The translations under genes and the position numbers were made by a program. Below, piece by piece: positions 4,433 through 35,834 of a DNA stretch of 37,304 bases (position 1 is its first letter; every line of letters starts with the position of its first letter). The stretch is from the IMG/VR virus record IMGVR_UViG_3300027896_000116, positions 1-37,304 of that record; one strand, 5' to 3'. The stretch is from a virus. The notes beneath the pieces were generated by a model, which was given only the letters and a program-made list of their open reading frames with translations, made no database searches and was not told where the DNA came from.

Positions 4433-5181
4433 TGCCGAGGAATCGTATGATTAAGCCGGAATTTTGGTCAAGTCAGTCATTGCATCGAGTTTCTCTTGAA
4501 GCTCGGCTGCTTTTTATCGGTATTTGGAATTTTTCTGATGACTTTGGTGTATGTTTGGACTCAAATCGGAAAATATTGGGTGAAATCTTTCCTAATGACG
4601 AGCAGATCACTGAGCGAAAAATACAAAAATGGAAACAGGAGCTTATTAACGAAACACTTCTTTTGCCTGTTGTTCATAATGCCGCAAATTATTTGATTAT
4701 AAGAAGTTGGAGCGAACATCAGAAGGTAGATCATCCCTCTGGAAGGCGATGGTTAGCCAACGAAATCATCGAAGAACTCTCGACAAAATACCTATCTTCT
4801 CGCGAAGGACTCGCGACAAACTCGCGCTCTAAAGAAGAAAGAGGAAAGAAGAAAGAGGAAAGTGAAAAGACAAAGTATGGAGACTCTGTTTTTCTTTCAA
4901 ATGAAGAATACTCTTCTTTGCTTATACGTCTTGATGAAAAAGATTCTCGCGTGAAACGGTGTATCGAAATTCTGGATAATTACAAAGGTGCGTCCGGCAA
5001 AACATACAAATCAGATTACAAGGCAATTCTTTCTTGGGTTATCGGTGAACTCGAAAAAAGAGAGCAGACCGGCGGCAAGAAAACCAAACCCACAAACGGA
5101 GCTGGTGACATAAACGCTGGATTTCAAACGCAAAGAATTCTCCGAGAAAAAGAAGAACAAAAAAAGAGTAAAGCACAATGA
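4432..5181 (+). CDS. Replication initiator / helicase loader, DnaD-DnaT-like
   Basis: 249 aa. The N-terminus MPRNRMIKPEFWSSQSL..ARLLFIGIWNFSDDFGV followed by GEIFPNDEQIT..KIQKWKQELI and WSEHQKVDHPS is the winged-helix found in many phage primosome proteins. The C-terminus has KTYKSDYKAILSWVI, the short helical motif of DnaT/DnaD-type helicase loaders. A charged lysine/glutamate linker joins the two. Such proteins bind the phage origin and deliver DnaB; the helicase gene follows with a 4-base overlap. The origin may lie in or near this gene, but no iterons were found. Confidence 0.8.
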   Translation: MPRNRMIKPEFWSSQSLHRVSLEARLLFIGIWNFSDDFGVCLDSNRKILGEIFPNDEQITERKIQKWKQELINETLLLPVVHNAANYLIIRSWSEHQKVDHPSGRRWLANEIIEELSTKYLSSREGLATNSRSKEERGKKKEESEKTKYGDSVFLSNEEYSSLLIRLDEKDSRVKRCIEILDNYKGASGKTYKSDYKAILSWVIGELEKREQTGGKKTKPTNGAGDINAGFQTQRILREKEEQKKSKAQ

Positions 5182-6536
5182 ATGATCGAACACCTCCACA
5201 GTGTATTGATGTTGAATGTGCCGTTCTTGGTTCTATGCTTTTAGAACGGGATGCGATTTATATTGCCTCTCGAATATTAAGGGCAGATTCGTTTTATAAG
5301 CCAGCACATCAGACAATCTTCCAAAGATTAATTGACCTTTACGAAAAAGATATAGACGCGAATCTTATTTCTTTGACTCAGGAATTAAAACAAAACGGCG
5401 AACTTGAATCTATCGGCGGTGAATATTATCTCACAGAACTTACAACAAAGATTTCAAGTGCCGCAAATGTTGAATATCAGTCTCATGTGGTTTTTGAAAG
5501 TGCACTAAAACGATTGGTGATTCAAGCATCATCTTCAATCTCAGAAGAATCATTCTCTGATACGTCTGACATATTCGACCTCATTTCTTCAATACAGAAT
5601 CTTGATATTGAACTTATGGGCCGGGTGAACGCTTGTAAAAGTTACGATAAACTTTCTCTACTCAATGCTTTTGTACAGTATATCCAAGATAAAAACAACA
5701 AGAAAAAGTTTCCAACTGGCTTTCCCACTCTTGATCGAATGCTAAAGGGTGGACTTCCTACGGGTGGGTATTCCATCTTAGGTGGAGATCCTGGAGCTGG
5801 GAAGACCAGTTGGATGCTTTCTGCTGCTCTTCACATGGCAAAACAAAACCACAATGTATGTTTTATCGAAGGTGAAATGCCAACACATGAAATATTCGAG
5901 AGGATGAATGGTATATGGTCCGGTGTGGATATTGATGAAATTGTTTCCGGGAATAGATACGATGAACTGACCAAGCCATTTATTTCGATGATACATAATA
6001 TTCCTTTTACGCTTGTGAAAAATTTTGATCGAACTATCGAAGCATTGGTTGCAGACATAAAACATGCGGTTTATAAAAAAGCTGATATTGTATTCATAGA
6101 TTATTTGCAGGTCTTTGCACCTCGCGGAAAATCTGACAATGAATTTTCAGCTATTAAATTAGTCTCAGAAACTATACGTTCTTTGTCTTTGAAAAATCCG
6201 ATTCATATCTGTGTGGCCTCGGCTTATACTCGTGATGCTGAATTTTATGGATCGAATCTTTTGAAGTTTGATGCCTCCCAGTTGTTGAGATTGAATTTTG
6301 ATAAAGAAGATAAGTCGAAAAGACTTGAAGAGTTGACAAATCCCCGTCGTGATATTACTTTGGAAGTAGAAAAAAATCGCGGCGGTGCAAGAGGTGATTT
6401 ATCTATCAGGTATTTTTTGGATTCTCAAAAAATGATTGAACTTGATGAAAGCGGTCAATATGTTCCTCCAGCATTTAATAATAATAATGTTATAGGTGAA
6501 CATGAAGAATCAACTCAGACTGAAGCACCTTTTTGA
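5178..6536 (+). CDS. dnaB: Replicative DNA helicase, DnaB family
   Basis: 452 aa, full length for the family. The N-terminal domain (PPQCIDVECAVLGSMLLE..FYKPAHQTIF) resembles DnaB. The RecA-like domain contains Walker A GGDPGAGKTS (about residue 198), an EGEMP segment, Walker B ADIVFIDYLQVF, and the C-terminal EVEKNRGGARGD motif that supplies arginine finger and DNA-binding loops. It unwinds the fork on the lagging strand as a hexamer. ATGA overlap with the loader gene supports an operon. No separate primase was recognised in the window. Confidence 0.95.
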   Translation: MNDRTPPQCIDVECAVLGSMLLERDAIYIASRILRADSFYKPAHQTIFQRLIDLYEKDIDANLISLTQELKQNGELESIGGEYYLTELTTKISSAANVEYQSHVVFESALKRLVIQASSSISEESFSDTSDIFDLISSIQNLDIELMGRVNACKSYDKLSLLNAFVQYIQDKNNKKKFPTGFPTLDRMLKGGLPTGGYSILGGDPGAGKTSWMLSAALHMAKQNHNVCFIEGEMPTHEIFERMNGIWSGVDIDEIVSGNRYDELTKPFISMIHNIPFTLVKNFDRTIEALVADIKHAVYKKADIVFIDYLQVFAPRGKSDNEFSAIKLVSETIRSLSLKNPIHICVASAYTRDAEFYGSNLLKFDASQLLRLNFDKEDKSKRLEELTNPRRDITLEVEKNRGGARGDLSIRYFLDSQKMIELDESGQYVPPAFNNNNVIGEHEESTQTEAPF

Positions 6537-6726: not shown

Positions 6727-7124
6727 GTTTAACCTGCGGGCGTAGGATGTTTCAAGACATTAAAACAGTTGTTGTTTTTGCGCGATTCACGGAGGAAAAT
6801 ATGAGATTGAAACGAAAGGAGCAAGTATGACATTAGAACGATTCTTCAAAATAGCACATCAAAAAGGAATTATAGATTTCAATTTACGTGCAGATGTTTA
6901 TACCGGAATCGTATCTTTCTACATTCATCCAGACAGCAAGGACGGCGATACAAGAGACTATTATGTATTCGGCAACGAATTGATACCGAAAGAAGAATTT
7001 GACAAACGAAAAGCTGAGTGTGGCGAAAAACTGATAAAACGATTCTTGGAAATTAAGGAGCGCAAAAATAACACAACGGGAAATGCAGAAAGCTCTTCCC
7101 GTCCACTTGAGCCGCTGGTTAGGC
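6727..7124. repeat. attC-like junction 1 (degenerate) with nested module 6768-7077
   Basis: Left end GTTTAACCTGCGG (6727), right end TTGAGCCGCTGGTTAGGC (to 7124). The inner arms pair poorly, so this copy is decayed. After a TTCAAG..TTAAAA segment shared with junctions 3 and 4, a nested module begins with GTTGTTGTTTTTGCGC (6768-6783) and ends with GCGCAAAAATAACACAAC (7060-7077), its near-complement. CGGGAA/TTCCCG (about 7077-7101) forms a further hairpin on the right. Confidence 0.45.
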
Positions 7125-7252
7125 AGTTGCCGCTACCAGAGATTAAGAGATTATGTGATATAATACTTAACAATATTACGAATGTTGGAAAAGAAGCCGA
7201 AGGGTTGGCATTGCTGATTGCACACGATGAATCTTTGCGGCAATCTGCCTAA
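6827..7252 (+). CDS. Hypothetical protein, apparent module fusion, 141 aa
   Basis: Strong GAAAGGAG site before ATG 6827. A 9-codon minicistron (6801-6830), itself with GGAGGAAAAT, overlaps the start as ATGA and may couple translation. Residues 1-80 form an unrecognised domain (LERFFKIAHQKGIIDFNL..DYYVFGNELIPKEEF). Residues about 90-101 (SSRPLEPLVRQ) are simply the attC-like junction read through in frame, and the last 40 residues (EIKRLCDIILNN..) come from the next module. The stop is the TAA of GCCTAAC. It may be a chimera created by module insertion. Confidence 0.55.
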   Translation: MTLERFFKIAHQKGIIDFNLRADVYTGIVSFYIHPDSKDGDTRDYYVFGNELIPKEEFDKRKAECGEKLIKRFLEIKERKNNTTGNAESSSRPLEPLVRQLPLPEIKRLCDIILNNITNVGKEAEGLALLIAHDESLRQSA

Positions 7253-7377
7253 CGGTTGCGGTAAGCTGCCACGACGGAAAGGATGAATAACGATGAATGA
7301 CGATGCTAATAAAAATCAAAACAACAACGGGGAATTGCAATCCGGCTCAAGTGGTCAGCTTGACCACGAGGTTAGGC
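7247..7377. repeat. attC-like junction 2
   Basis: R'' GCCTAAC (7247-7253), inner arm GCGGTAAGCTGCCAC (7258-7272); opposite arm GTGGTCAGCTTGACCAC (7351-7367), R' GTTAGGC (7371-7377). The arms pair at 14 of 15 positions, leaving C and A unpaired on the right arm, six bases apart. 131 bp, within the usual attC range. The right arm is also nearly self-complementary. Confidence 0.7.
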
Positions 7378-7712
7378 ACACTTGCCCATCTTGCGATGGT
7401 AGTGGACAGATATTCGGAATGTTTCCGGTTTACGCCGAATCTGTTCCACCAGAGAAAAAGAAACCATTTATAAAACTAAAGTGTGATTTATGCAATGGAA
7501 CTGGTTTGATGGATGAAGGTTATCCATTGCGGAAACAAAAAGGCGAACAATCCAGAAGATTGAGAATGAACAACAACTATGGATTGCGTGACGTATCAAA
7601 ACGATTCGGTGTAAACCCCTCAATCATATCTTCGTTTGAGCGTGGCAAGAAGTTGACCGACAAAGAAACGATTGAATTAAAACAATGGCTTGATGTATTG
7701 GAGGGCAAGTAG
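7293..7712 (+). CDS. Zinc-finger plus XRE-type helix-turn-helix protein
   Basis: 139 aa. After a low-complexity N-terminus (NKNQNNNGELQSGSSGQ) comes a DnaJ-like half-finger pair, CPSCDGSGQ and CDLCNGTG, about residues 31-72, then a Cro/CI-type helix-turn-helix: GLRDVSKRFGVNPSIISSFERGKKL. Probably a small DNA-binding regulator. The first 25 codons lie in the attC-like junction, and GLDHEVRH-type residues at the border are junction sequence read in frame, so the native start may have been different (an internal ATG at the MFPVYAES segment exists). AAAGGATG lies 10 bases upstream. Confidence 0.65.
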   Translation: MNDDANKNQNNNGELQSGSSGQLDHEVRHTCPSCDGSGQIFGMFPVYAESVPPEKKKPFIKLKCDLCNGTGLMDEGYPLRKQKGEQSRRLRMNNNYGLRDVSKRFGVNPSIISSFERGKKLTDKETIELKQWLDVLEGK

Positions 7713-7795
7713 TGCCTAACGGTTGCGGCTAAGATGCTGCAACGAAAATTTTCAAGTTGTTAAAAACAAGTAAATGCCGTGCGAGGGAAAAAGAG

Positions 7796-7987
7796 ATGAC
7801 CGACGATAGTATAATGTATTTTGGAAAATATAGAAGTGAAAAATTGCGAGATGTTCGGGCATCATATCTACTTTGGCTAAACGCGCAATGGGATGACGCG
7901 CCACCTGAGAGAGACCGAGACAAAGAATTGAAACAATACATTGAGGAAAACTTGGAAGTATTGAGAATGGAAAGGAACAAAGAATGA
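7796..7987 (+). CDS. DUF3820-like small protein, 63 aa
   Basis: Starts at ATG 7796 (GAGGGAAAAAG upstream) rather than TTG 7757, which lies outside the module. The core MYFGKYRSEKLRDVRASYLLWL matches the 'FGKYKGKxLxDVPxxYLLWL' motif of DUF3820 proteins, small proteins common in phages and next to exonucleases; their role is unknown. A charged helical C-terminus follows. ATGA overlap with the next gene. Compact, complete and fully contained in the nested module. Confidence 0.75.
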   Translation: MTDDSIMYFGKYRSEKLRDVRASYLLWLNAQWDDAPPERDRDKELKQYIEENLEVLRMERNKE

Positions 7988-8250
7988 CTATTCACAAAGA
8001 CAGAATGCGAGCAAAACTTGCGATGGCTTCGATTGAGAACACCAACCTATTGCAACAAAATTTAGACATTGATAAACGGATCGGAGAACTGCAAGACTTT
8101 CTTATGCGACTTGCGGAAAAAGGCGGAACAATTGTTTCATCAAATGATTGCTCGGTCTCTGAAATAACATTGGCGCAGGCGTGTAAAAGATTCTTGGTTA
8201 TTGATTCGCTTGGATTCGTTTACAGACCAAAACCAACGGAGGAAAAATGA
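7984..8250 (+). CDS. Hypothetical helical protein, 88 aa
   Basis: Overlaps the previous stop by ATGA, with AAAGGAACAAAG as ribosome site. Residues 8-45 are predicted helix or short coiled coil (AKLAMASIENTNLLQQNLDI). The C-terminal half (SEITLAQACKRFLVIDSLGF) shows no known motif. Ends at the right inverted repeat of its module. Confidence 0.6.
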   Translation: MTIHKDRMRAKLAMASIENTNLLQQNLDIDKRIGELQDFLMRLAEKGGTIVSSNDCSVSEITLAQACKRFLVIDSLGFVYRPKPTEEK

Positions 8251-8546
8251 GCACGGCATTTACTCTTTGGAAAATTGTAGTGAGCTACTTCAGTCATCTT
8301 GAGCCGCTGGTTAGGCAGTGTTGCCGACATTGCATATACCTGATAAAAGAGTTGGTAGAAGTAGAAGACGAACCCGATTATATGAGTGGACGTTGTTTGA
8401 AATACCGAGAGATGAATAACGCGTTCCCACAATGGAATAATTTTAACCGTGAATTAATATGTTGCGTAGATGTTGACAACCAATGCCAGAATTATAAACA
8501 GAAAGAACTTAGTAGCGCACCCTTGTTTGAGGCAACATCTGCCTAA
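8247..8546 (+). CDS. Cysteine-rich protein reading across an attC-like junction, 99 aa
   Basis: ATG 8247 (GGAGGAAAA upstream, ATGA overlap) lies in the nested module's right repeat. The first 26 residues, including SHLEPLVRQ, are junction sequence. The module-encoded part has Cys pairs (CCRHC, then GRCLKY, ICC, NQC), suggesting metal binding. The stop is the TAA of GCCTAAC. The native gene may have had another start; the current arrangement supplies a good ribosome site from the inserted module. Confidence 0.5.
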   Translation: MSTAFTLWKIVVSYFSHLEPLVRQCCRHCIYLIKELVEVEDEPDYMSGRCLKYREMNNAFPQWNNFNRELICCVDVDNQCQNYKQKELSSAPLFEATSA

Positions 8547-8597
8547 CGGTTGCGGCTATGCTGCGAACAGATAAATTTTCAAGATTTATTAAAAAGA

Positions 8598-8929
8598 GTT
8601 AGGCAAAAAGGATTATGAAAAAAGCAGAGGAAATAAAACCAAGCTATGCGCCCGTTTATGCTGCGGCATTATACCCCGATTTAGCAAAGTTATTTGTGCG
8701 GAATGGATACGCCTTGGCAGTACACGGTAGTCTGGCGCGTGACTTTGACTTGATCGCCGTGCCGTGGGCGGATAAAGTAGAAAGCATTGCAACAGTTATG
8801 ACAGAAGTGATGTCTACTTTTGCGATAAGGATAATTGGTAACCCAGAGACTAAAAACCACGGGCGCATAGCGTTTACGCTGTCTGTTGGTTTTGGAGAAT
8901 GCGCGGTCGATTTATCCTTTTTGCCTAAC
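8598..8929. repeat. Nested module with 14-bp perfect inverted repeats
   Basis: GTTAGGCAAAAAGG (8598-8611) and CCTTTTTGCCTAAC (8916-8929). The left repeat includes the ribosome-binding AAAAAGG of the enclosed gene; the right repeat encodes part of its C-terminus (SFLPN). Confidence 0.85.
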
Positions 8930-8953
8930 ACAATGAATAACGTACCGAGCTAA
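8615..8953 (+). CDS. Nucleotidyltransferase-fold-like phage protein, 112 aa
   Basis: Residues 28-45, YALAVHGSLARDFDLIAVPW, match the 'HGS..RDfDLi' pattern of a small phage family related to nucleotidyltransferases (G-S then D-x-D). Near the end GFGECAVDLSFLP carries a third acidic residue, so the metal-binding acids appear present. Substrate unknown. The family recurs as phage cargo (from memory). It is complete and carried on a nested module; the last eight codons run past the right repeat. Confidence 0.7.
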   Translation: MKKAEEIKPSYAPVYAAALYPDLAKLFVRNGYALAVHGSLARDFDLIAVPWADKVESIATVMTEVMSTFAIRIIGNPETKNHGRIAFTLSVGFGECAVDLSFLPNTMNNVPS

Positions 8954-9002
8954 TTTCGTCAGCATGAGCCGCTGGTTATACAGCGTGGCGTGCTTTAAGA
9001 CT

Positions 9003-9191
9003 ATGATACATATACTGCCGATAGATGATTTAGAGCCGCACATAGAAAGCGGAACGAGTTGTAAGTGCAACCCGAAGGTGGAAATTGAAGAAGGCGAATT
9101 GATAGTGATACATAACGCATTTGACTTGCGAGAGGTTGTGGAAAAGGTAAAAAGCATATTGACAAACGATGATAACGCCACGCCTGTATAA
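9003..9191 (+). CDS. Small conserved phage-type protein, 62 aa
   Basis: Reads MIHILPIDDLEPHIESGTS, then CKCNPKVEIEEGELIVIHNA and FDLREVVEKV. I recall similar 60-residue proteins in many phages ('HxLPxNDLxEHxES..C.CxP'), function unknown. ATG 9003 fits that family better than the upstream ATG 8964, which would add junction-encoded residues. The stop is the TAA of GTATAAC. The ribosome site is poor. Confidence 0.65.
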   Translation: MIHILPIDDLEPHIESGTSCKCNPKVEIEEGELIVIHNAFDLREVVEKVKSILTNDDNATPV

Positions 9192-9314
9192 CGTTGAAGC
9201 TAAATTGCGGTACTGAAAAACTTAAAGAAAGGACAAAGACGATGCAAAAAATAATACAACTGATACGGAATTTTGTAGTGAGCTAATTCCGTCAAATTGA
9301 GTGCTTGGTTAGAA
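9186..9314. repeat. attC-like junction 5
   Basis: R'' GTATAAC (9186-9192) followed by GTTGAAGCTAAATTGCGG; opposite arm CCGTCAAATTGAGTGCTTG (9289-9307), R' GTTAGAA (9308-9314). Pairing is less perfect than in its sisters but keeps the CGG/CCG block and the unpaired C and A positions. A separate 8-bp hairpin ACGGAATT / AATTCCGT (9265-9272, 9285-9292) lies in the loop. Confidence 0.55.
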
Positions 9315-9345
9315 CGCAACACAACACAAACGAAAAGGTAGAAAG

Positions 9346-10299
9346 ATGAATGAACCCAACTTATACGGCAAAGACTTATTTGGAGATGTTGTTTTGCCGC
9401 CGCGAAGAGGGGCTTTAGCGGATAAGTTTTTAATTCCTCCTTTTTCAGTGTTGAATGCAAGGGAAGGTTTTTGGCAAGAAAGAAAAAGCGCGTGGAATTC
9501 TATTGGTATAAAAGGCGCAGAAGGAAGGGGGGGGGAATTACATTCTGGTGATACGGTTGATGCAAGAAATGGTGATGAATGGGAAGGTGGAAGAAGTTGT
9601 TGGCAAAACGAGGGAACATCTGTTTTTGATCCGGTGCTTTGTGAGTTAGCATATAAATGGTTTTGCCCGAACAGTGGAACAATACTTGACCCGTTTGCAG
9701 GAGAGGCAACCAAAGGAATCGTGGCTACATTTCTTGGATATAAATACGTTGGAATAGAGTTGAGAGCAGAGCAAATTGAGGCGAACAGAAAGCAAGCGGA
9801 AAAAATAGAAGTTACGCCAGAATGGTTTTTAGGTGATAGTGCAAAACTAAGCGAACTTGTGCCAAAAGAATTTAAGGCGGATATGGTTTTTACAAGCCCC
9901 CCATATTATGACTTAGAAATTTATAGCAAGGATGAAAAAGATGGAAGTGCATTTGAAACCTACGAAAAATTTATGGTTTGGTATGAGAATATATTTAGGC
10001 AGGCAGTGGAGCATCTGAGAGAAAATAGGTTTTTAGTCGTTAAGGTTGGAGAAATAAGAGATGAAAAAGGGTATTACCGGAACTTTGTTGGGGATAACAT
10101 TTCTTGTTTCCTCCGGCTGGGCTTGAAGTATTACAATGAAGCAATATTGATAACAAGCGTTGGAAGTTTGCCAATACGGGTAGGACGGCAATTTTTGGCA
10201 GGTAGGAAACTTGGAAAAACACATCAGAATATACTGGTTTTTTTCAAGGGTGATGCAAAGAATATAAAAGCGGAATTTGGCAATGGATCATTCGATTAA
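9346..10299 (+). CDS. DNA (cytosine-N4/adenine-N6) methyltransferase
   Basis: 317 aa, GGTAGAAAG before ATG. Motif I is DPFAGEATKGIVATFLGY followed by the acidic GIEL (SAM binding, about residues 125-147); the catalytic motif IV is TSPPYYDLE (about residue 186). The N-terminal LADKFLIPPFSVLNAREGFW and C-terminal GRKLGKTHQNILVFFKGD are typical of a phage methyltransferase family. TSPPY favours an N4-cytosine type, but specificity cannot be told. Probably modifies phage DNA against restriction. No restriction partner is visible. It lies in the largest linear module, whose two ends do not match each other. Confidence 0.85.
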   Translation: MNEPNLYGKDLFGDVVLPPRRGALADKFLIPPFSVLNAREGFWQERKSAWNSIGIKGAEGRGGELHSGDTVDARNGDEWEGGRSCWQNEGTSVFDPVLCELAYKWFCPNSGTILDPFAGEATKGIVATFLGYKYVGIELRAEQIEANRKQAEKIEVTPEWFLGDSAKLSELVPKEFKADMVFTSPPYYDLEIYSKDEKDGSAFETYEKFMVWYENIFRQAVEHLRENRFLVVKVGEIRDEKGYYRNFVGDNISCFLRLGLKYYNEAILITSVGSLPIRVGRQFLAGRKLGKTHQNILVFFKGDAKNIKAEFGNGSFD

Positions 10300-10795
10300 T
10301 TTGTTACAAAAAAACATACGTGCAAAAGTAATAGCGGAACACTTACGCAAACTCGGGAAAAATGATTGTGTCTGTTTCACTTGTGGTAATGCAGGAAAGG
10401 CATTGAGAGTGCAGGGCTTAGGTGTAATTGAAATAAATAACCCTGAGAGGTGGTATTCCTTTGCGGAAATAGGGAAACAATACAACGGCTTTGATGCAAC
10501 CAGCGGGCATTTACCTATGCCACTTATGGCAATTATAGCCAATGAATTGAAAAAGGAATTAAAAACTGTGCCAGTTGAATTTGAATTGCCTACTGGTTCT
10601 GGAGAAACTTTTGTATGTCTGAAAATGGCTTTCCCCTTTGCAAAAATAACGCCTGTATATAATTTAGATAAGTCAACCGAGTTTCACGAACTTGCACCAT
10701 TAAATGACTTAGTAGATGCAATTTACCAAAATGGGAAAACAATCTTTTCCCTGAGCGCGGGAAAAGTTTTTATCAACATAACGGATCGCGTATAA
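10283..10795 (+). CDS. Conserved protein of unknown function beside the methyltransferase
   Basis: 170 aa from ATG 10283, overlapping the methyltransferase end by 17 bases. Notable blocks: CVCFTCGNAGKALRV, FDATSGHLPMPLMAII, PTGSGETFVCLKMAFP and the acidic/aromatic ITPVYNLDKSTEFHELAPL. The glycine- and serine-rich loops suggest a nucleotide- or cofactor-binding fold. I recall this protein next to the same methyltransferase family in other phages but know no activity. Coupled translation suggests a joint role. Confidence 0.6.
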   Translation: MDHSINLLQKNIRAKVIAEHLRKLGKNDCVCFTCGNAGKALRVQGLGVIEINNPERWYSFAEIGKQYNGFDATSGHLPMPLMAIIANELKKELKTVPVEFELPTGSGETFVCLKMAFPFAKITPVYNLDKSTEFHELAPLNDLVDAIYQNGKTIFSLSAGKVFINITDRV

Positions 10796-11014
10796 ATTGC
10801 GACAATGAAAACCATTAACAAATTGCAAGCGGCTGTAAAACCACGCTGGCGAGTGTGGTGGAGAGTAAGACAATGATGCACATGCTTTTCAATAGGACTA
10901 CTGGGTAGTTGAGATTGTGGGACATTGCAGCCACGCAGAAAACAGCCGCTTGCATCTAATTTAGGAGTTAAAATATGAAACGCCCATCTCGTCAATTTGA
11001 TACGCTGGTTAGCC
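10776..11014. repeat. attC-like junction 6
   Basis: R''-like ACATAAC (10776-10782), inner arm GCGTATAAATTGCGA (10788-10802); opposite arm TCGTCAATTTGATACGC (10989-11005), R' GTTAGCC (11008-11014). Arms pair perfectly over 15 bp with unpaired C and A six apart, the clearest example in the island. The loop holds a 13-bp inverted repeat enclosing a structured segment. Confidence 0.7.
10824..10954 (+). ncRNA. Candidate structured RNA inside junction 6
   Basis: Closed by TGCAAGCGGCTGT (10824-10836) and ACAGCCGCTTGCA (10942-10954), exact complements. Inside are hairpins ACCACGCT/AGTGTGGT with loop GGCG (10840-10859), ACTAC/GTAGT (10897-10909) and GTGG/CCAC (10917-10934). There is no credible reading frame. 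It occupies the place where other junctions carry nested genes, so it could be an RNA gene, a decayed module or only a DNA structure. The strand is assumed. Confidence 0.4.
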
Positions 11015-11199
11015 CGCAACCGCATTGCGAGTGCCAGAAGTGCAACCCAGAGTTGTATGGAATGAAAATGTTCATTTGCCCACGATGCGGTAATAAACGA
11101 TGCCCACACGCTACCGACCACGAACTTGCTTGCACGAATAGCAACGAGATTGGACAAAAGGGTAGTGAGTACGAATTTCAAGGGCGGTTGTCGGGCTAA
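10975..11199 (+). CDS. Small zinc-ribbon-like phage protein, 74 aa
   Basis: The start at 10975 has TTAGGAGTTAAAAT upstream but lies in the attC-like junction, so residues 1-13 (KRPSRQFDTLVSP) are junction-encoded. The body has CECQKC, then FICPRCGNKRCPHATDHELA and C, a pattern (C-x2-C-x2-K-R-C-P-H-A-x-D-H) I recall from many phage proteins of unknown role. Stop is the TAA of GGCTAAC. Probably binds one or two zinc ions. Confidence 0.65.
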   Translation: MKRPSRQFDTLVSPQPHCECQKCNPELYGMKMFICPRCGNKRCPHATDHELACTNSNEIGQKGSEYEFQGRLSG

Positions 11200-11220
11200 C
11201 GGATCTTATACTTCACGACA
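11194..11220. repeat. Orphan left half of an attC-like junction
   Basis: GGCTAACGGATC followed by TTATACTTCACGACAG has the same layout as the left arms at 7714, 8541 and 10776. No complementary right arm was found downstream. It marks the right border of the island. Confidence 0.5.
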
Positions 11221-11252: not shown

Positions 11253-11513
11253 ATGGAGTTCCAACGTGTTTCGGAAAGACTAAGAACAGAAATCGTCCAG
11301 AGGAATCATTCGATGCAGACGTTCAATTCTTACAACGCATCGTTAAGAATATTCTGCAAATATTTTCCTGACAAGAAAGACTCTGAGCACATTAACTCCG
11401 AACAGATATATACCCATACATCTGTAGGATTCAAGAAACGATTGCCGAATCCTTTTGATGAAGTTCAAAAGAAACCGGCGAATGTTTATCCATTACGAAA
11501 AACAGGAACATAG
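11253..11513 (+). pseudogene. Internally deleted tyrosine recombinase remnant, 86 aa
   Basis: Residues 5-50 (VSERLRTEIVQRNHSMQTF, YNASLRIFCKYF, HINSEQI) match the N-terminal core-binding domain of XerC/D-type recombinases ('yS..T..sY...l..F..yf....I'). Directly after EQI the sequence becomes IYTHTSVGFKKRLPNPFDEV, which resembles the extreme C-terminus, including the nucleophile Tyr ('IYTHxS..k..NPLD'). The whole catalytic domain between, with its R-H-x-x-R residues, is missing and the frame is kept. The shared Ile codon suggests a small-homology deletion. It lies about 50 bases from the island's last half-site. It cannot be active. An unrelated small ORF is possible. Confidence 0.6.
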
Positions 11514-33924: not shown

Positions 33925-34845
33925 ATGGCGATAGGAATTGCTTTAGCTCGTGGGAATGTCGTTGTTGACGGTATTTCCAATATTCAGGTTTCAATGGGAA
34001 TCGCTTCTACGACTCCTAAATGTTATTCGTTTGGGGAATTGTACGACGGTAAGTTGACCTTGACTCCAATAACTCAAAAAGATTCACAAGGTCGGAATTG
34101 TACAATAGCTTTCACCTTAGAATGTGAAGCTAAATTGATGTACACAAGCAAGACGAACTGTCTGAAGATATTAGACTATCTTTCTGTCAATTATCTTGAT
34201 TTTGTCATCACAGCGGTCAATGGTACGACTTATACCTCCGGTCTTTTGACCAATAAACACTTTGGGTTTTCGTGGACGTTTGATTCCTCGAAAGATGTGG
34301 ATGGAATAAGGTTTGTGCAGATTAAGATTGACCGCAAGCTTTTGATTGCGGAAATCGACACGTTGATCGGAAGCAATACGGCGATACTTGCTTACAATAC
34401 CGCTGACGCTGTGATTGCCTTGTTAGAATCTCAGACAGTGGCTGATAGAATACCAGCGGGGGTCACGAATTATAGTCTTGCTCCTACGGGTGCGGGGTTG
34501 GAAGATATTGGCGTTATCAGAAACGCAAAACTTCAGTGTGAACTTCAAACATCTTTAGATAATCTTGGTCGGTCGGTCGGTCATTCGATTAAATTACACA
34601 CAGAGGTTGAAGGCATGCAAGCAAAATCTACAGAACTTGCTCTGGCTGATAATGCTGCAGGCATTTCTGTTGACCATTCTTTGACTCTAATGGACGGTAC
34701 GGTCTTCAAGTCGATAAATAAGCAAGGTATTGGCTGGGAGTTCCACAGTGACAAAGACACTGAAGATGTTGCATTCATAAAATTCACAGGCGATGGAACG
34801 ATAACAAATATTGTTTCTTCAGCTTGGGATGGATTGTTTACATAG
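33925..34845 (+). CDS. Structural protein, paralogue A
   Basis: 306 aa, AAGGAGTAAAACAGT upstream. Beta-rich, starting MAIGIALARGNVVVDGI. It shares with the gene at 34917 the blocks DGKLTLTP, AKLMYT, FDSSKDVDGIR, GVIRNAKLQCEL, LTLMDG, NKQG and DKDTED-AFIK along its whole length, so the two are a tandem duplication. Candidates are tail tube or tail tip proteins; I recognise no family. No other tail tube gene was identified, which makes this plausible. Confidence 0.6.
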   Translation: MAIGIALARGNVVVDGISNIQVSMGIASTTPKCYSFGELYDGKLTLTPITQKDSQGRNCTIAFTLECEAKLMYTSKTNCLKILDYLSVNYLDFVITAVNGTTYTSGLLTNKHFGFSWTFDSSKDVDGIRFVQIKIDRKLLIAEIDTLIGSNTAILAYNTADAVIALLESQTVADRIPAGVTNYSLAPTGAGLEDIGVIRNAKLQCELQTSLDNLGRSVGHSIKLHTEVEGMQAKSTELALADNAAGISVDHSLTLMDGTVFKSINKQGIGWEFHSDKDTEDVAFIKFTGDGTITNIVSSAWDGLFT

Positions 34846-34916: not shown

Positions 34917-35834
34917 ATGGCAATAGGTCTAAGCTTAAATCGCACAAATGTTGTCTGTGACGGTATTGAAAAAATACTGGTTAATTTAAGTCTAAACGGG
35001 GAAACAAATAGTAATTACTCCCTTGGAAGAATTTTTGATGGCAAGTTGACCTTAACGCCCGTTATTCAAAAATCAACGCAGGGGCAAAATAGAACCGTAG
35101 CATTTGACTTTCTTTGTACAGCAAAATTGATGTACACCGGTATCACAAGTTTGATAAAACTTCTTGATTTGATGTCTACTGATTATTTGTATATTTATAT
35201 TATTGCTAATAATGGCACTCAGTTTGGGGTAGATGAAAGTTTCTTTGTTGGCTTCAAGTGGTCATTCGATTCAAGTAAGGATGTTGATGGAATCAGGTAT
35301 GTTGAAGTCGAGTTTGATAGACGGCTGACTTTAGCAGAAGCTGGGGCATTCACAACAACTAACCAAACAACAGCAGCATACCCAACAGATTTTTTATATC
35401 CTCTTTATTCTCTTTCTCCTGCGGATGTAATACCTGCTGGTATTTCAAAGTACGAACTCCGCCCAACAGGAGTTGGAAGTTATGAAGATTTGGGTGTCAT
35501 AAGAAATGCAAAGCTTCAATGTGAACTAATAACAACGAAAGACAGCATTGGGCGTTCCTGTGGAGTGGGGATAAAACTTCATTCAGAAGTTGAAGCGATT
35601 CAAGGCACAGTCACAGAACTTGCGCTTGCAAATAACATCGCAGGTATTAACGTCGATCATAAACTAACACTGATGGATGGTGGTATATTTACTTCTGTCA
35701 ATAAACAAGGTGTGGCTTGGGATTTACATCTTGACAAAGACACAGAAGACGCTGCATTTATTAAAATAATTGGTGATGGAAATATACGAAATCTTGTCTC
35801 TGATGCATGGGATAATCTTTGGACAGCACCATAA
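34917..35834 (+). CDS. Structural protein, paralogue B
   Basis: 305 aa, strong AAGGAGGTAAAATAAA site. Collinear paralogue of the gene at 33925; both begin MAIG and end in VS-x-AWD-x-L. The middle (about 145-175) and the N-terminal 40 residues are the most diverged parts. The 71-base gap between the copies gives B its own, stronger ribosome site. Role as for paralogue A; two related tube or tip subunits would be a simple explanation. Confidence 0.6.
   Translation: MAIGLSLNRTNVVCDGIEKILVNLSLNGETNSNYSLGRIFDGKLTLTPVIQKSTQGQNRTVAFDFLCTAKLMYTGITSLIKLLDLMSTDYLYIYIIANNGTQFGVDESFFVGFKWSFDSSKDVDGIRYVEVEFDRRLTLAEAGAFTTTNQTTAAYPTDFLYPLYSLSPADVIPAGISKYELRPTGVGSYEDLGVIRNAKLQCELITTKDSIGRSCGVGIKLHSEVEAIQGTVTELALANNIAGINVDHKLTLMDGGIFTSVNKQGVAWDLHLDKDTEDAAFIKIIGDGNIRNLVSDAWDNLWTAP

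Follow-up and report, generated by a model that had tools for sequence, protein, structure and literature searches.

The stretch analysed here, referred to as the window, comprises positions 1 to 37,304 of the IMG/VR virus record IMGVR_UViG_3300027896_000116 and is a phage contig, with matches to a DnaB-like helicase, NinG, terminase, portal and major head protein, phage genes read on the plus strand, and a GC content of about 41% throughout. An array region with five hairpins of the integron attC type (7247-11014) and the right half of a sixth follows the helicase gene (5178-6536) and precedes the small terminase gene (start 14654); its place is between the replication and packaging genes of a tailed-phage genome. 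We consider it probable that this is an integron cassette array in which each attC stands before its gene, mobilised by an integron-type recombinase.

The complete sites, all on the plus strand, are attC1 (7247-7377, 131 bp), attC2 (7714-8316, 603 bp; halves 7714-7766 and 8269-8316), attC3 (8541-8981, 441 bp; halves 8536-8589 and 8935-8988), attC4 (9186-9314, 129 bp, with partly decayed arms) and attC5 (10776-11014, 239 bp, with an extended loop). The orphan right half, attC0 (7065-7130, plus strand), has its core box GTTAGGC at 7118-7124 and lies inside an open reading frame (ORF; 6827-7252); it adds to an earlier note on this DNA, as do the pairing of cassette ends, the platform-like array end (11194-11200) and the recombinase relic (11253-11513) described below. 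The boxes of attC1 and attC2 (GCCTAAC/GTTAGGC) follow the consensus RYYYAAC/GTTRRRY, and those of attC3 (GCCTAAC/GTTATAC), attC4 (GTATAAC/GTTAGAA) and attC5 (ACATAAC/GTTAGCC) deviate from it in one or two positions. An unpaired central spacer (GGTTG/CTG and similar) is present between box and arm. On the plus strand, the right arm of the perfect copies carries the canonical extrahelical T and G with six bases between them; the earlier note had placed both bulges correctly, but gave them as C and A, which is the complement. By the bulge rule, the plus strand is predicted to be the recombinogenic (bottom) strand, and the cut at attC1 is expected between 7252 and 7253 (CTAA^C).

Sites were located with a detector consisting of AAC, a spacer, a stem of 5+6+2 pairs with bulged T and G on the right arm, a second spacer and GTT. 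In the window, matches free of mispairs fell at 7714-8316, 8541-8981 and 10776-11014, and a match with a single mispair at 7247-7377, in agreement with the coordinates of the earlier note. Sixty dinucleotide shuffles of the window, searched on both strands, gave neither perfect matches nor matches with up to one mispair and TAAC/GTTA boxes, and over 1.2 Mb of other loci nearly all matches with at most half a mispair fell in attC arrays. The pattern GCCTAACGGTTGCGGC by itself was rejected as a search tool, with six viral matches of which only L004 is an array and the others look like chance.

A nucleotide profile built from other phages only matched attC1 (E = 1.1e-23) and attC4 (E = 2.1e-23) at full length, attC0 at E = 1.8e-10, and sites 2, 3 and 5 each as two halves; the long copies of 603, 441 and 239 bp are therefore ordinary attCs of about 130 bp with loop insertions, two of which bear ORFs. 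attC4 had been described as a less perfect relative, which agrees with its imperfect arms, yet the profile recovers it. This sequence-only profile recovers the same places as the pairing-based detector. With a plain profile of 39 bacterial attCs, attC1 was matched (E = 3e-4), as were several further phage sites (E < 1e-3), and an Rfam search of the window returned no family at gathering thresholds. Folded as single-stranded DNA, attC1 forms the attC hairpin and attC4 gives no full hairpin; single-strand folding energies by themselves do not separate sites from shuffles. Both partners have changed in 12 of the 13 arm pairs compared across 27 phage sites, with a covariation of 0.72 against 0.14 in shuffled data, figures that are inflated by the selection of the detector for pairing. 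Among 29 sites there are 21 different S1 and 12 different S2 sequences with the pairing kept, the arms of attC4 being partly mispaired, which upholds the claim that arm sequences vary while bulges and pairing persist. These data support the assignment of the phage sites to the integron attC type.

The array type recurs, with sites in register, in the IMG/VR contigs G001 (L004), G002 (L009), G010/G011, G012, G013, L047 and L164, several of which share distant structural proteins with the window; G002 is likely complete because it has terminal repeats of 127 bp. The attCs of a further contig, G014, are of a different type. attC2 with its loop ORF is also found in G002, about 91% identical over the first 275 bp and 91-97% identical in the end segments; CTAAC and GTTAG mark the limits of the homology, beyond which the genes differ. 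A C5-methyltransferase cassette is common to G001 and G002, with a homologous gene outside any cassette in G013, and phages with terminases of only 27% identity have cassettes or cassette parts in common. Isolated phages searched with the array DNA gave only short gene matches.

The inserts of attC2 and attC3 have inverted-repeat ends, which would keep the loop closed: the ends of the attC2 insertion are paired by AGTAAATGCCGTGC / GCACGGCATTTACT, and the unit inserted in attC3 is bounded by GTTAGGCAAAAAGGAT / ATCCTTTTTGCCTAAC. The latter gene unit (8598-8929) has perfect 16-bp inverted ends (GTTAGGCAAAAAGGAT), and its protein has homologues in several giant phages. If the plus-strand units running from box to box moved independently, as transposon- or IS200/IS605-like elements whose inverted ends resemble attCs, this would account for the GTTAG...CTAAC ends of the unit in the attC3 loop, as well as for the attC2 homology that ends at the boxes between differing neighbours. 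We regard such elements as very unlikely, since the T-6-G bulges and the boxes resemble those of attCs recombined by IntI, the only recombinase traces beside the arrays are of the tyrosine type, and near-identical attCs attached to different genes are also found in Vibrio-type integrons. A version with the box-to-box ORF units as transposons was dropped, as the ends of the gene units pair likewise and both join into one attC stem.

The longer ORF lies on the hairpin strand at 19 of 22 viral sites versus 14 of 48 bacterial ones, and a frame open for 40 codons or more terminates with the box TAA at 17 of 22 versus 10 of 48 (Fisher p about 1e-5 for the viral versus bacterial contrast in orientation and stop). 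With the genes on the hairpin strand, the attC therefore precedes its gene; the classical layout, with the attC downstream and the gene on the non-recombinogenic strand, is not that of the window and is seen in phage TJE1 and in Photobacterium. The TAA within the cut site CTAA^C typically serves as the stop codon. About 18 cassettes of the phage attC family have an open frame that begins within the attC, often behind a Shine-Dalgarno-like AAGGA or GGAG, runs via the right arm and the GTTAGGC core (in about 16 of them in the same frame), and ends at or near the next box. The C5-methyltransferase of G001 aligns with most other phage enzymes only from residues 27-32 onwards, just past this leader, and two annotated homologues start where the leader ends; judging from these alignments, the start of the gene body itself has been lost and the one in the attC serves in its place. 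Genes on the hairpin strand also accompany two attCs at 3912-4450 of L262, a short contig that binning assigned to Candidatus Shapirobacteria and that is possibly a misbinned phage fragment.

The genes of the window, all on the plus strand, follow this scheme. An ORF at 6827-7252 crosses the attC0 core in frame and stops with the TAA in the attC1 box. The next cassette ORF (7293-7712), with weak matches to zinc-finger-like and helix-turn-helix proteins, starts inside attC1. The attC2 loop contains two ORFs, at 7757-7987 (nucleotide match to a phage gene annotated DUF3820) and 7984-8250, and is followed by a cassette ORF that starts inside attC2 (8247-8546), stops with the TAA in the attC3 box and has a homologue at the same position in G002. 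The attC3 loop ORF (8615-8953) matches phrog_35913 (E = 5e-37), and the cassette ORF starting in the attC3 arm (8964-9191; phrog_2864) stops with the TAA in the attC4 box. Behind attC4 are a DNA methyltransferase gene (N6_N4_Mtase, 9346-10299) and an ORF without family match (10277-10795), and a last cassette ORF starts in attC5 and stops with the TAA at the terminal box (10975-11199). The cargo consists mainly of methyltransferases and small accessory genes; the methyltransferases may serve to evade host restriction, which fits what Qi et al. (2023, PMC9892861) propose for other phage cassettes.

Across each gene, the right box and flank of one site pair with the left flank and box of the next. 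Such pairings were found at 7118-7253 (GTTAGGCAGTTGCCGC with GCGGCAAtCTGCCTAAC), 7371-7720 (GTTAGGCACACTTGCCC with GGGCAAGTaGTGCCTAAC, giving a full hairpin in the joined form), 8310-8547 (GTTAGGCAGTGTTGCC with GGCAACAtCTGCCTAAC), 8975-9192 (GTTATACAGCGTGGCG with CGCCACGCCTGTATAAC) and 11008-11200 (GTTAGCCCGCAACCGC with GCGGTTGtCGGGCTAAC), all on the plus strand. In the window, G001, G002 and G010 they are typically 12-17 nt long, or longer, and have a single base (T or A on the plus strand) bulged out after the ninth pair. The mean pairing score in phages was 10.6 for neighbouring and 5.0 for non-neighbouring ends, compared with 8.6 and 5.2 in bacterial arrays, where the bulge is mostly absent. 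When joined, the ends of most cassettes form one continuous hairpin whose folding energy improves on that of the linear site by about 10 kcal/mol. In the homologous methyltransferase cassettes of G001 and G002, a box change from GTTAGGC to GTTATAC is paired with one from GCCTAAC to GTATAAC. The earlier note had taken the deviating outer boxes as a possible sign of a distinct family; the deviation is real, but the best pairing partner of a box is that of the adjacent site, on the other side of the gene, as one would expect if cassettes are excised as circles. Cut at CTAA^C, the two ends of a cassette are predicted to meet and to extend the attC stem only in this circle.

Hairpins on the transcribed strand that hold the Shine-Dalgarno sequence and start codon of the following gene might also be RNA structures of a polycistronic transcript, with a role in translation control or processing and none in DNA recombination. 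We think this most improbable, given that the pairing joins both ends of a gene and yields a single stem only once these are joined, that boxes and bulges match attC, and that the same hairpins in bacteria lie mostly on the antisense strand.

The last cassette ends at the box GGCTAAC (11194-11200, plus strand), which pairs with the attC5 box over 16 bp and has no attC beyond it; the junction 11199/11200 is a candidate attI junction. At the final cassette junctions of G001 (3467) and G002 (30660) the sequence continues with similar DNA (CTACTGATTAG, CTACTAAGTA), possibly an attI-like sequence. In G012 (24355) and L164 (470), the core box of an attC is followed by the same terminator-like GCATACGCTTTTCAAATTGCGAGCGTTTTT, so that the two arrays may end in a common context. 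About 54 bp past the last box of the window, a plus-strand ORF (11253-11513) was identified by BLASTP and tblastn, and weakly by PF02899, as an internally deleted tyrosine recombinase: it matches the first ~60 and last ~40 residues of a recombinase in G013, joining the N-terminal SAM-like domain to the Tyr-bearing C-terminal tail without the catalytic middle. From this remnant at its end, the array probably once had its own recombinase, and the description of it as integrase-less in the earlier note is too simple. PF00589 and TIGR02249 are absent from the window. With five attCs within 3.8 kb and without a functional intI, it has the make-up of a CALIN, though one with a recombinase relic; the window has only this relic, not the functional integrase with the IntI-specific domain of a complete integron.

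The only cassette detected in G013 has its end at TGGCTAA^C; a tyrosine recombinase of 317 residues begins about 50 bp further on and reads away from the cassette, which, relative to the attC, is the layout of a class 1 platform. The enzyme scores as Xer-like first and as integron integrase second (130 bits, with the TIGR02249 cut-off at 265), and the IntI-specific insertion is largely missing; a search of IMG/VR for relatives returned only the protein itself. It could be an ordinary lysogeny integrase located there by chance. As a tentative proposal, the phages may have a dedicated integron-like system, with a Xer-type recombinase without the IntI-specific domain, an attI-like junction, inverted attCs, and start-less genes that are turned into ready-to-translate fusions. 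If so, this would be a second, phage-specific integron lineage, and it would show cassette formation, since genes and attCs reassort at the boxes.

A deleted recombinase, decayed arms in attC4, the missing left half of attC0 and the lack of a working recombinase in most records would suit a host chromosomal integron that was caught by the phage and became immobile, with its attCs as passive leftovers and its genes kept as ordinary phage genes. This is unlikely in view of the mostly perfectly paired arms with many both-side changes, the gene orientation opposite to that of host arrays, and the cassettes and parts common to phages with such distant terminases. Moreover, the attC pattern of the phage family had no match in 477 genomes (395 + 82) of two candidate host phyla. 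Weak profile matches were obtained in Ignavibacteria, Calditrichota, Balneolota and similar bacteria, with no direct host match. The detector itself finds sites in bacteria (Photobacterium, Calditrichota, Ignavibacteria, Gracilimonas and others), and bacteria carrying IntI show the same T/G geometry; an integron integrase above the TIGR02249 cut-off was present in seven of the bacterial genomes tested versus none of 13 viral records.

Clusters of attCs without functional integrase (CALINs) are already known from phages, and this part of the earlier note is not new. Qi et al. (2023, PMC9892861) report them in the virulent phages TJE1 (Tetrasphaera), P12002L (Polaribacter) and H101/PH101 (Pseudoalteromonas), and show that IntI1 recombines the TJE1 attCs, mainly via the bottom strand. 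These clusters share with the window the lack of a functional integrase and the methyltransferase cassettes. Our detector finds two attCs in TJE1 with the bulge geometry of the window, but with the genes opposite to the hairpin strand, unlike in the window; P12002L and H101 gave no convincing detector matches and were not usable as controls. attC-borne starts, extended cassette-end stems and loop-borne ORFs, all present in the window family, are not described in the part of PMC9892861 available. With sedentary chromosomal integrons (Vibrio VCRs, Photobacterium, Rubrivivax) the window shares the attC boxes, variable arms and bulges, similar attCs on unrelated genes, and a partial R-stem complementarity of cassette ends; in contrast to it, the bacterial arrays sampled mostly have genes on the strand opposite to the hairpin, and their cassette ends pair over about 4-14 nt, all but one without a bulge. 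The supply of a Shine-Dalgarno sequence and start codon by a recombination site has a counterpart in ORF-11 and ORF-18 of attI1 in class 1 integrons, which aid a cassette lacking them (reviewed in PMC8876359). There it is the attI that acts, by translational coupling and on the first cassette only, whereas in the phages the part falls to the attC of every cassette, usually with a frame that runs on across the core and yields an N-terminal leader.

In the open-licence papers searched we found no description of inverted, attC-first cassettes or extended circle stems. Four features of the window and of its uncultured phage relatives appear to be new: cassette genes on the recombinogenic strand, opposite to classical arrays; attCs that often supply Shine-Dalgarno sequence and start, with the frame running through GTTAGGC and the TAA of CTAA^C as stop; cassette ends that pair over about 12-17 bp around a bulge at a fixed position, with a stem complete in the excised circle only; and an intact (G013) or deleted (window) Xer/IntI-like recombinase about 50 bp past the last cassette.

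In an attC-first cassette array, a cassette on the plus strand would extend from the C of CTAA^C through the attC and one gene, typically ending with the TAA at the next cut. A host IntI acting in trans, or a phage enzyme of the G013 kind, would excise cassettes as circles via the folded plus strand, the joined circle ends would complete the long attC stem, and the recombinase would insert the circles in phage genomes. Because the phage would transcribe through the array and the attC leader would start translation, a start-less gene body could be expressed at once. Several observations weigh against mobile cassettes of this kind. No functional recombinase was found in the window, G001, G002 or G010; the phage attC family was seen in no more than about eight viral contigs; and the window itself comes from a metagenome assembly. 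Some cassettes have their own start codon just after the core, and two read through the core in another frame. Finally, the neighbours of attC2 differ and its homology ends at both boxes, so that an attC and its gene are not invariably passed on together as a single cassette.

In a classical integron, attC-first cassettes would be silent, and phages may therefore keep a separate cassette pool. Ends that pair only in the circle would be evidence, at the level of sequence, for the excised circle as a selected form, and start-less genes beside exchangeable attCs make the origin of cassettes a testable question.

Outside the array, two features of the window were recorded. At the contig end (1-433), an 18-bp unit (ACATCCGTGGTGGCAATG) is present in 24 tandem copies, perhaps a real repeat or an assembly edge. 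The adjacent genes at 33925-34845 and 34917-35834 are duplicates of each other, with about 68% DNA identity over 330 bp.

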